Below, one piece after another: positions 1,496 through 21,261 of a stretch of DNA of 34,056 nucleotides. Source of the stretch: PVC group bacterium (GTDB lineage Bacteria > Verrucomicrobiota > Verrucomicrobiia > Chthoniobacterales > SZAS-18); assembly GCA_903642295.1 (NCBI GenBank), contig CAHJWO010000008.1, positions 1 through 34,056 of the forward strand, read 5' to 3'. Positions within the stretch are counted from its first letter, which is position 1. Each line of letters opens with the position of its first letter. The translations under genes were made by a program, and so were the position numbers. Below the pieces are notes generated by a model. That model ran no database searches, had not been told where the DNA came from, and saw only the letters and a list, made by a program, of their open reading frames with translations.

Positions 1496-1653
1496 GCTGA
1501 GGAAAAAAGACACGTGAAATCAGATGGGCACCGCGCGGATTCTTCGTGTGACACGTCGTGCCAAAATGTCCCATGTCATGCGCGTCCGTGCTGGCCACTG
1601 AGTCATGTTGGCAGGGATTGTATTGTTTTGATACACCGGACGATTGATCATAA

Positions 1654-3702
<2,049 letters not shown>

Positions 3703-14418: not shown

Positions 14419-16728
<2,310 letters not shown>

Positions 16729-16779: not shown

Positions 16780-16800
16780 TTTTTAGGAATGGGCCGCCTC

Positions 16801-17149
16801 TGCCCGGAGAAAAATTCTCATTTTTACCGGTGGCACATGGGGTGCTAATACCCCAATCGTTCGTGAGTCACGAACAAGGGGGAAACATCCAAAGGCAGTT
16901 TGGTCGGAGGGAGAGAGTGGAAAATCCGGGGGGAATTTTCCGCAGGGCCGGCCAAACTGTTTTCCCCAGATTTCGGGATCAATCCGTGTGGACGAGGGCA
17001 GGGTGGAAAGAGACGGGTCTCTTTCGGGCGTTCACACGGGCTTGCCTCAGTTGGCGCGTGCGGGGAACGATGGGACGCGCCACTGGGTGAGCAGGGTCGC
17101 CGCTGTTCTTGGCGGTGTTGACGGGTTGTCGGATACCTGGCCCGACCGG
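16801..17149. ncRNA. Candidate structured non-coding RNA, multi-helix region of unknown family
   Basis: No convincing protein gene lies between 16,537 and 17,164, but this part is packed with strong helices. These are GGGGT/ACCCC (16839-16854), GTTCGTGA/TCACGAAC (16859-16875), a three-tier helix of GGGGAAA/TTTCCCC, CAGTTTGG/CCAAACTG and GGAAAAT/ATTTTCC (16879-16967), CCGTGTG/CACACGG (16984-17039) enclosing GAAAGAGAC/GTCTCTTTC (17006-17025), CAG-TGGCGCGT/ACGCGCCA-CTG (17048-17085), GCCGC/GCGGT (17099-17116) and GTCGG/CCGAC (17128-17146). GAGGGCA (16994-17000) can pair with TGCCTC (17043-17048) across the CACACGG strand, a possible pseudoknot. Conserved blocks of RNase P RNA, tmRNA, SRP RNA and common riboswitches were sought and not found. 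A promoter-like pair precedes it on the plus strand, but it could also be the 3' UTR of brnTA on the minus strand. The function is unknown. Confidence 0.4.
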
Positions 17150-17164
17150 AAACGAGCGCGCGAC

Positions 17165-17452
17165 TCAGATTTCCTTTTCCAGCCGCTCGCTCAGCCACTG
17201 CTTGACCATGCTCTGATAGTTGAGATAGCGCGAGCGGGCCAGCCGCTTGATCCTCGCAAGCATCCTGGGATCGAACCGCAGGGTCACCGTCGTCGATTCC
17301 CGGGTGTCGGCCTTGAGGATCGCCGTGTTCATCAGCCGGGCGTCGATGCGCGTCTGCGTCCAGAAGGCCGCCTCGTCTTCCTCGCTTTCAAAGGCCGGGA
17401 CCTCCGACCATTGGGTAATGACGCGGGTGGTTTTGGGCGTTGGTTCTTCCAC
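17165..17452 (-). CDS. brnA: BrnA-like antitoxin (CopG/ribbon-helix-helix)
   Basis: This 95-residue protein ends in a ribbon-helix-helix unit: TTVTLRFDPRMLARIKRLAR followed by SRYLNYQSMVKQWLSERLEK, the BrnA/CopG antitoxin pattern. The N-terminal part (ITQWSEVPAFESEEDEAAFW) is the flexible toxin-contacting region. It lies 42 bases after the BrnT-like toxin gene on the same strand. The toxin-first order is characteristic of brnTA and unlike most TA operons. BrnA proteins usually repress their own promoter, which here would be upstream of 17,776. The 3' end borders the structured region at 16,801-17,149. Confidence 0.8.
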   Translation of the reverse strand: MEEPTPKTTRVITQWSEVPAFESEEDEAAFWTQTRIDARLMNTAILKADTRESTTVTLRFDPRMLARIKRLARSRYLNYQSMVKQWLSERLEKEI

Positions 17453-20015: not shown

Positions 20016-20237
20016 ATGAGCAAGGTTTTCGTCGAAGATGTGCTGGCACTCAGTGTTTCCGAACGCATCCAGCTCGTCGAGGATATCTGGGACAGTATTG
20101 CGGCCCAGCCGGAACCTTTGCCGCTCACGCAGGCACAACGTGATGAACTGGATCTCCGGTTGGAAGACCTTCAGCAGCATCCCGAGGACGGGTCTCCTTG
20201 GGAGGAAGTCAAAAGCAGAGTGCTGAACGCACCATGA
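20016..20237 (+). CDS. Addiction-module antitoxin (TIGR02574 type)
   Basis: This 73-residue protein matches the small 'putative addiction module component' family: VLALSVSERIQLVEDIWDSI, then PLTQAQRDELDLRLEDLQQH, and SPWEEVKSRVL near the end. These antitoxins precede RelE/ParE-like toxins. The stop codon overlaps the toxin start by four bases (ATGA), indicating translational coupling. The downstream toxin gene is broken, so this antitoxin may now be an orphan. The 228 bases before it (19,788-20,015) hold no gene or recognisable element. Confidence 0.85.
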   Translation: MSKVFVEDVLALSVSERIQLVEDIWDSIAAQPEPLPLTQAQRDELDLRLEDLQQHPEDGSPWEEVKSRVLNAP

Positions 20238-20691
20238 CGGCATCGGTCATTTTTCGACCGGCGGCGGAGTTTGAATTACAGGAATCATTCCGGTGGTACG
20301 AAGCACGCGAGCGTGGATTAGGCACTGAGTTTGTGCGGTGTGTGGATGCCTGCGTGCAAACGATTCGTCGTCATCCTGAGCTTTATCCTATCGCATACAG
20401 AGAGATTCGACAGGGAGTTTTAAGGCGTTTCCTTATTCGGTGCTCTACCTCAGCACTAAGTATGTATGAGAGGGTTTCCAGGTGGATGGCGAGCTCCGAG
20501 CGCCAGGTTTTCGTGACCGCGCCGCGGTCTAAAAGGCTTGGCAGCATGGCGGCTGCGCCGCCGGGAAAACAGGGCGCTCGGAGATCGCCATCCACCGAGA
20601 TCCTATTTCGCAGATGCTTGGAAATAGTATCATCGTCGTTTCAGTCTTCCACTCCTCGCGCAATCCGAAAGTTTGGAAACGGCGTTCCTAG
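20234..20691 (+). pseudogene. RelE/ParE-like toxin gene, frameshifted and split by a repeat element
   Basis: The first 65 codons encode a normal RelE/ParE N-terminus (VIFRPAAEFELQESFRWYEA, IRRHPELYPIAYREIRQGVL). At about 20,428 the frame slips. One extra T in the CGTTTCC run would give RRFPYSVLYLST, the expected family sequence. A 162-base element (20,458-20,619) follows. After it the missing C-terminus is intact: GNSIIVVSVFHSSRNPKVWK then RRS and a TAG stop at 20,689-20,691. Joining 20,457 to 20,620 reads in frame as LYLST-GNSIIVV. So the gene carries two lesions, a one-base deletion and an insertion. As it stands, a read-through product of 158 residues, open to 20,710, would lack the active C-terminal strands. 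The toxin is very probably inactive. Confidence 0.85.
20458..20619. mobile_element. MITE-like element (family A) inserted in the toxin gene
   Basis: This is a 162-base element without coding capacity. The core arms GGTGGATGGCGAGCTCCGAG-CGCC (20481-20504) and its inverse (20573-20596) match over 24 bases with one mismatch. Weaker inverted similarity extends outward to AAG(T/C)AT at both ends. Further hairpins (GACCGC/GCGGTC, GCAGC/GCTGC) fill the centre. Removing exactly these bases restores the toxin reading frame across the site, which defines the element's ends. A related copy lies at 23,449-23,548. No transposase is in the window, so it would be moved in trans. No clear target duplication was seen. 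Confidence 0.75.
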
Positions 20692-20706
20692 CCATCCATT
20701 CTTCTC

Positions 20707-21261
20707 ATGAAATTTGTCCTTGCCATGACCGGGGCCAGCGGGTCGATCTACATGCAGCGGCTCCTGGCGCGCCTGGATGCGCGGGCGCACGAAATCCATC
20801 TCGTCCTGAGCAATCACGCCCGGCAGGTGGCGGCGTCCGAGTTGCCCGACCACAAACTCAGCGTGCCCGAGGGCGTCCACCTGCACGATGAGCGCAGCAT
20901 GTACGTGCCGTTCACCAGCGGCTCGACCCACTTCGATGCGATGGCCGTCGTGCCGTGCTCGATGGGCACGCTGGCGCGGATCGCCGCCGGGACGAGCGAC
21001 AACAACATCCTGCGCGCCGCCGACGTGTTCCTCAAGGAACGCCGCAAGCTCATTCTCGTGCCCCGCGAGACGCCGTGGAATCTGATCCAAGCGCGCAACG
21101 TGGTGACCGTGATCGAGGCCGGGGCGCTGATCCTGCCAGCCGTGCCGTCGTTTTATGGCCGGCCCGATTCCGTGGAGGCCGTCGCGGACACGGTGGTGTT
21201 CCGCATCCTCGACCACCTCGGCCTGCCCGCGCCGGAAGCCCCTCGCTGGCAAGAGGATTGA
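20707..21261 (+). CDS. ubiX: Flavin prenyltransferase UbiX
   Basis: UbiX joins dimethylallyl phosphate to FMN, making the prenylated flavin that UbiD-type decarboxylases need. The 184-residue product shows the whole family pattern: FVLAMTGASGSIYMQRLLAR (the GASG FMN loop), HLVLSNHARQVAASE, the VVPCSMGTLARIAAGTSDNN core, and RRKLILVPRETPWNLIQARN. The length is normal. The ATG at 20707 lies 15 bases after the end of the broken toxin gene. The gene is alone here. No ubiD is in the window, so the decarboxylase partner, for example in menaquinone or ubiquinone synthesis, must be elsewhere. Confidence 0.95.
   Translation: MKFVLAMTGASGSIYMQRLLARLDARAHEIHLVLSNHARQVAASELPDHKLSVPEGVHLHDERSMYVPFTSGSTHFDAMAVVPCSMGTLARIAAGTSDNNILRAADVFLKERRKLILVPRETPWNLIQARNVVTVIEAGALILPAVPSFYGRPDSVEAVADTVVFRILDHLGLPAPEAPRWQED

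Follow-up and report, generated by a model that had tools for sequence, protein, structure and literature searches.

A conserved small RNA with a predicted sigma-54 promoter in the bacterial order Chthoniobacterales

A compact structured RNA is encoded on the forward strand of a 34,056-nucleotide stretch of DNA (the window) from a member of the Chthoniobacterales (Verrucomicrobiota). The locus very likely represents a stand-alone gene, about 105 nt long and found in this order, for an activator-switched sRNA that acts in trans. Computational analysis has shown a covarying structure, a sigma-54 promoter at a fixed distance, a terminator-like end, an absence of coding potential and conservation at the level of the order. 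The gene and its promoter are well supported, and from the sequence we are highly confident that an sRNA gene is here coupled to sigma-54 control, while its target and mode of action are what we infer.

A preliminary description of this DNA had proposed a large multi-helix RNA filling some 350 nt at 16801-17149. That region is indeed free of genes, being bounded by a divergent ligA gene for NAD-dependent DNA ligase (14419-16536, minus strand, likely start 16536) and a convergent gene for a CopG/BrnA-type antitoxin (17165-17452, minus strand, ending at 17165). The stems claimed within it are present in the sequence where they had been placed, and folding recovered the three-tier nested helix (16879-16967), the 9-bp hairpin (17006-17025) inside a helix at 16984-17039, and the bulged helix reported at 17048-17085, the last as 17052-17082. 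The extent needs revision: the conserved RNA occupies only the first third of the region (16857-16966, about 110 nt), and in place of a large multi-helix RNA we find a compact sRNA that has a promoter of its own and a terminator-like 3′ end. A pseudoknot suggested between 16994-17000 and 17043-17048 falls wholly in the unconserved part, where no support for it was found.

Promoter and architecture of the RNA

The first 56 bases of the region include a predicted sigma-54 (RpoN) promoter on the plus strand at 16831-16848, which reads TGGCAC (16831-16836)-N6-TGCTAA (16843-16848), the consensus of the -24/-12 element. Its -24 GG lies at 16832-16833 and its -12 GC at 16844-16845, and the predicted transcription start sits 12 nt past the latter, at about 16857. 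The same element (GG-N10-GC) with the same spacing was present, at scores of 9-11 of 11, in 64 of 64 homologous loci, which were aligned on this element in a scan that required GG and GC and only scored the other letters. TGCT and the A of TGGCA are found in 64/64 loci. As a control, 39 such scores occurred among 416,688 positions of the same loci, or 0.01 per 110 nt. Among the matches within the order that were examined and accepted, the only copy without a promoter is the second tandem copy at locus L050 of genome G001. RpoN itself was detected in 195 of the 213 genomes of the order, including the host, whose genome also encodes eight strong sigma-54 activator domains.

An activator site common to all loci was sought and rejected, since no single site is shared by every locus; only A-tracts and family-specific motifs were found. 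Several of these motifs are recorded here with the labels used for families (f1, f4, f8, f9, f10, f11 and f12), loci (L) and genomes (G). TTTAG(A/C)CA/TGGCTAAA sites occur in a subset of loci, mostly 97-174 nt upstream of the -24 element. An inverted repeat, TTTAGACA-N4-TGGCTAAA, is seen in L026, L027 and L033 (f4) about 103-117 nt upstream of -24, a usual distance for a sigma-54 activator site, and its half-sites appear in some f1, f9 and f10 loci; elsewhere it occurs at 0.005 per 300 nt, in a lenient control of mostly coding DNA. CTCTGTA, its complement TACAGAG or near matches lie ~20-40 nt upstream of -24 in many f4 members and in L037, L043 and L049 (f8). Finally, GGCGATCTTTGA(A/G)CA or GGCGATTTTTGCGCA words are common to f12 and f8 loci some 45-75 nt ahead of the promoter, on the ligA/vanZ side, and may constitute a second activator site or a control element of ligA/vanZ.

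Homologues of the same family share one order of elements, in which TGGCAC-N6-TGCTAA and a brief spacer precede a hairpin, a linker of purines leads on to the long stem enclosing an invariant AATCCGGGGGGAA, and TTTTCC closes the series. In the window, the RNA (16857-16966, plus strand) is identified by covariation and by covariance-model scores of 112.6 bits (R1) and 71.7 bits (R2), and its predicted ends, at about 16857 and 16963-16966, give a predicted length of about 105-110 nt. Directly 3′ of the predicted start lies hairpin H1, GTTCGTG-AGT-CACGAAC (16859-16875), which occurs in f1, f4 and f8, where in most members it begins 1-4 nt past the predicted start, but not in f10. The arms of H1 vary yet stay complementary, with 35 loci over the script threshold against 7.4 in shuffles, although the f12 hits within this count are a different hairpin. 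The single-stranded linker that follows, AAGGGGGAAACATCCAAAGG (16876-16895), has a shared CAAA(G) core that forms the 5′ end of the shorter f10 RNAs, which begin at CAAAG ahead of the main stem and are about 85 nt long.

The main stem, H2, is a 12-bp helix in which CAGTTTGGTCGG (16896-16907) pairs with CCGGCCAAACTG (16948-16959). It encloses a purine internal loop, with a conserved AGGG(A) on the 5′ side (16908-16916) and AGGG on the 3′ side (16944-16947), and an inner hairpin, H3 (16917-16943), formed by GTGGAAAAT (16917-16925) and ATTTTCCGC (16935-16943). The apical loop of H3 is an invariant GGGG (16928-16931) closed by CC/GG. Immediately after H2, a U-run (16960-16963) forms an end resembling an intrinsic terminator: at least four T among the 7 nt after H2 were found in 71% of 45 homologues, against 6% in background. 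The run is poor in most f4 members, and termination may therefore differ in that family. The RNA is non-coding, in that 26 of 45 RNAs lack an ATG and differences in length do not keep the frame; a small protein was ruled out, there being no conserved frame.

Homologues, distribution and genomic neighbours

A DNA search identified five more genomes of the family with a homologue, two from the host's genus and three from two other genera, so that the RNA is present in 6 of the family's 7 genomes. The sequence shared among these homologues is only 16831-16966. RNAalifold analysis of the six sequences revealed two-sided compensatory change at 15 of 35 pairs. In the three named helices, all 145 of 145 cells pair in the same six sequences and 14 of 25 pairs show two-sided changes, compared with an average of 4.3 in shuffles, and slid versions pair in 23-43% of cells. 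For the main stem in an alignment of 44 sequences, 98.5% of 527 cells are paired (slid controls, 11-42%) and two-sided changes affect 12 of 12 pairs; such counts of pair changes are not counts of independent events, as sequences within one genus are related.

Rfam 15, which includes GlmY, Qrr, tmRNA, RNase P, SRP, 6S and riboswitch families, gave no gathering-score hits in the window or in ten homologue loci, and the best sub-threshold hit was set aside as a chance-level match. The preliminary suggestion of a structured RNA belonging to no known family is thus upheld by the absence of Rfam hits and by covariation across 44 homologues.

Two covariance models were used to trace the RNA further, with E-values that are rough. 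R1 was built from the six same-family sequences, with the promoter outside the model, and matched 44 of the 213 genomes of the order Chthoniobacterales, a few of its weakest matches without a promoter being left out. R2, built from the 44-sequence alignment and excluding both the 5′ hairpin and the promoter, matched 66 of the 213 genomes, 43 of 112 good-quality genomes and 20 of 45 genera. The cultured Chthoniobacter flavus Ellin428 carries the RNA (L155, R2 71.7 bits). Family f11 has RpoN, yet no copy of the RNA was found in it. Extending the search to 388 genomes sampled across the phylum yielded just four further, weak hits outside the order: two plain terminators, one tandem stem-loop array and one weak match. 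None of them has the -24/-12 element, and all were rejected. Hits from a pattern scan in Treponema, Streptomyces, Brevibacillus, Rhodocyclales and others were likewise dismissed as chance, having no R2 match.

Copy number varies. The host genome contains no second copy of the RNA, and within the window R2 with filters off gave only 16888-16966 (plus strand) and its mirror. Three copies were counted in G001, and two each in G002 and G059; at L050 in G001, two copies lie in tandem at 2012-2122 and 2149-2249 (plus strand), 137 nt from start to start. In another order of the class, L102 of G581 carries three tandem stem-loop/U-run units (826-905, 1192-1271 and 1501-1578, plus strand) that have GGGGG at their centre and lack a sigma-54 promoter, possibly an unrelated sRNA array.

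Both genes flanking the RNA in the window are on the strand opposite to it. Across the order, ligA adjoins 34 of 64 RNA loci, and an ancestral linkage of the RNA to ligA is likely; VanZ-like genes are found near 23 of 64 loci, and a MurQ-like sugar gene lies beside 11 (f4, f10). On the other side, brnA-brnT and a glyoxalase gene are present in 12-14 loci, and they are downstream in f4 and f10. Because the structure and the promoter persist while these neighbours (ligA, vanZ and murQ; brnA-brnT-glyoxalase) change, the RNA is regarded as an independent gene. Elsewhere in the window, the frames at 20016-20237 and 20198-20710 (both plus strand) resemble by eye a RelE/ParE-type toxin-antitoxin pair, with a short antitoxin followed by a toxin-like frame.

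Alternative readings and mode of action

The plus strand of 16780-17170 folds at -174 kcal/mol (z = -4.66, equalled by 0 of 100 shuffles), and the opposite strand gives z = -3.45. The proposed excess of stems over chance stands for 16857-16966 (z = -4.09) and 16967-17100 (z = -4.62), and fails for 17048-17164 (z = -0.94, with 33 of 200 shuffles as good). Two further strong hairpins at 16984-17085, between the RNA and brnA, are lineage-specific and lie outside the conserved RNA; their z-scores are -4.6 on the plus strand and -4.1 on the minus strand, and they are possibly terminators for converging transcripts. Whereas the helices of 16857-16966 are kept in relatives, these have no counterpart there and were ruled out as part of the RNA. 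A single large RNA structure spanning all 350 nt, which the z-scores below -4 for both blocks might suggest, is accordingly very unlikely: seven same-family loci have nothing comparable 3′ of the RNA except the tandem second copy at L050, R2 sees no second copy in the window, and 17048-17164 folds no better than its shuffles. An RNA-free explanation, in which the element is a conserved terminator or inverted repeat of the neighbouring genes, would account for the stem with its U-run and for the folding of the other strand (z = -4.21). We consider it extremely improbable, given that three helices covary around invariant loops, that all 64 aligned loci have the sigma-54 promoter and a 5′ hairpin stands at the predicted start, and that the RNA persists beside different genes; moreover, since the upstream ligA is divergent, the window offers no ligA transcript to terminate. 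The terminator-like stem at the end could also fit an attenuator or riboswitch in the 5′ leader of a downstream gene, and a co-directional frame does follow in f12 and f9, but the next gene (brnA or glyoxalase) is convergent in the window and in many relatives and the downstream genes differ among families, so that such a leader is very improbable.

A rather different possibility is that the RNA serves as a decoy, scaffold or RNP component, its AGGG/GGG internal loop and GGGG loop forming a protein site that the stem only holds in place. In favour of this reading, conservation is higher in the apical G-run than at most positions of the stem, where the letters covary, and Hfq was not found in the 25 RNA-bearing genomes; in addition, GlmY, a sigma-54-driven sRNA, serves as a RapZ decoy and shows no binding to Hfq (PMC6075780). 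However, no candidate gene for an RNA-binding protein travels with the RNA, and CsrA turned up in just 4 of the 25 RNA-bearing genomes, and not in the host, so that it cannot be the general partner. CsrA is the best-known binder of GGA loops. Overall, we think a protein-binding role possible but somewhat doubtful.

Hfq was found in 0 of 25 RNA-bearing genomes, in a search in which the expected control genomes gave matches. Together with the CsrA count, this argues that the RNA is no CsrA sponge and does not belong to the Hfq-dependent sRNAs. The preferred reading, a trans-acting sRNA gene switched by an activator, would work as follows. RpoN-RNA polymerase would sit idle on the -24/-12 element, and an enhancer-binding protein at a more distant upstream site would, on sensing a signal, hydrolyse ATP and set transcription going. 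The 5′ hairpin may protect the start of the RNA, which would end at the main stem and U-run. The rigid stem would display the invariant GGGG loop, along with the purine internal loop, and this G-loop would engage target mRNAs first, at their C-rich stretches, altering their translation or stability without Hfq. Direct base-pairing of the G-loop with C-rich mRNA is, as we infer it, an evenly balanced proposition.

The loop complement, TTCCCCCCGG, is enriched, with 13-19 occurrences per genome where its reversed form has 1-2. These sites were rejected as a regulon, as they appear by eye to fall mostly within coding DNA; the enrichment yields no regulon because the word fits the codons TTC CCC CCG (Phe-Pro-Pro), and coding sequence best explains this misleading count. 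Outside the RNA, three tandem repeats of about 115-120 nt at L220 (G001:C260 3310-3554) contain TTCCCCCCGG beside GC-rich inverted repeats.

Relation to known sRNAs and biological meaning

Qrr RNAs depend on Hfq. The RNA described here differs from them in that Hfq was not found in the 25 RNA-bearing genomes and in having no Rfam match. It resembles the Qrr sRNAs of Vibrio (LuxO/sigma-54) as a stand-alone sRNA under sigma-54 control, the Qrr RNAs being activated by RpoN and an enhancer-binding protein (PMC10162802). It is also like GlmY/GlmZ of Enterobacteria (activator QseF), which are stand-alone genes for structured sRNAs with sigma-54 promoters (PMC6075780). Unlike GlmY/GlmZ, it has no Rfam match and no sequence or structural homology to them was seen; it belongs to another phylum and does not lie beside qseEGF. 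The GGA/GGG motifs in its loops recall the CsrA sponges of the CsrB/RsmZ type, but 21 of the 25 RNA-bearing genomes lack CsrA, the motifs are few and there is one conserved main stem. In Staphylococcus, C-rich-loop sRNAs carry a homopolymer-like invariant loop on a stem, presumed to be the seed. The present RNA likewise shows an invariant loop on a stem, but of opposite polarity, and as its loop is G-rich it would need C-rich targets.

The RNA is a new, previously uncatalogued family, although sigma-54-controlled sRNAs are as a kind already known. Neither a report of this RNA nor any described sRNA of the Chthoniobacterales was found in the open-licence literature, and three structured-RNA discovery papers there do not mention Verrucomicrobia, which is weak evidence of absence; a 2022 survey put the number of distinct sRNA families in the entire PVC group at just 8 (PMC9029176). 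With its promoter, predicted ends, structure, covariance model, neighbours and a cultured carrier defined, the RNA is directly testable. Rather tentatively, we propose an order-wide RNA regulon in Verrucomicrobiota that operates free of Hfq and CsrA, in which a sigma-54-switched RNA would use its invariant G-runs to pair with C-rich mRNA or to recruit an undescribed RNA-binding protein, by a mechanism not known from model bacteria. The RNA offers a handle on what sigma-54 controls in the poorly studied Chthoniobacterales of soil and freshwater, and on how an sRNA works where Hfq is missing.
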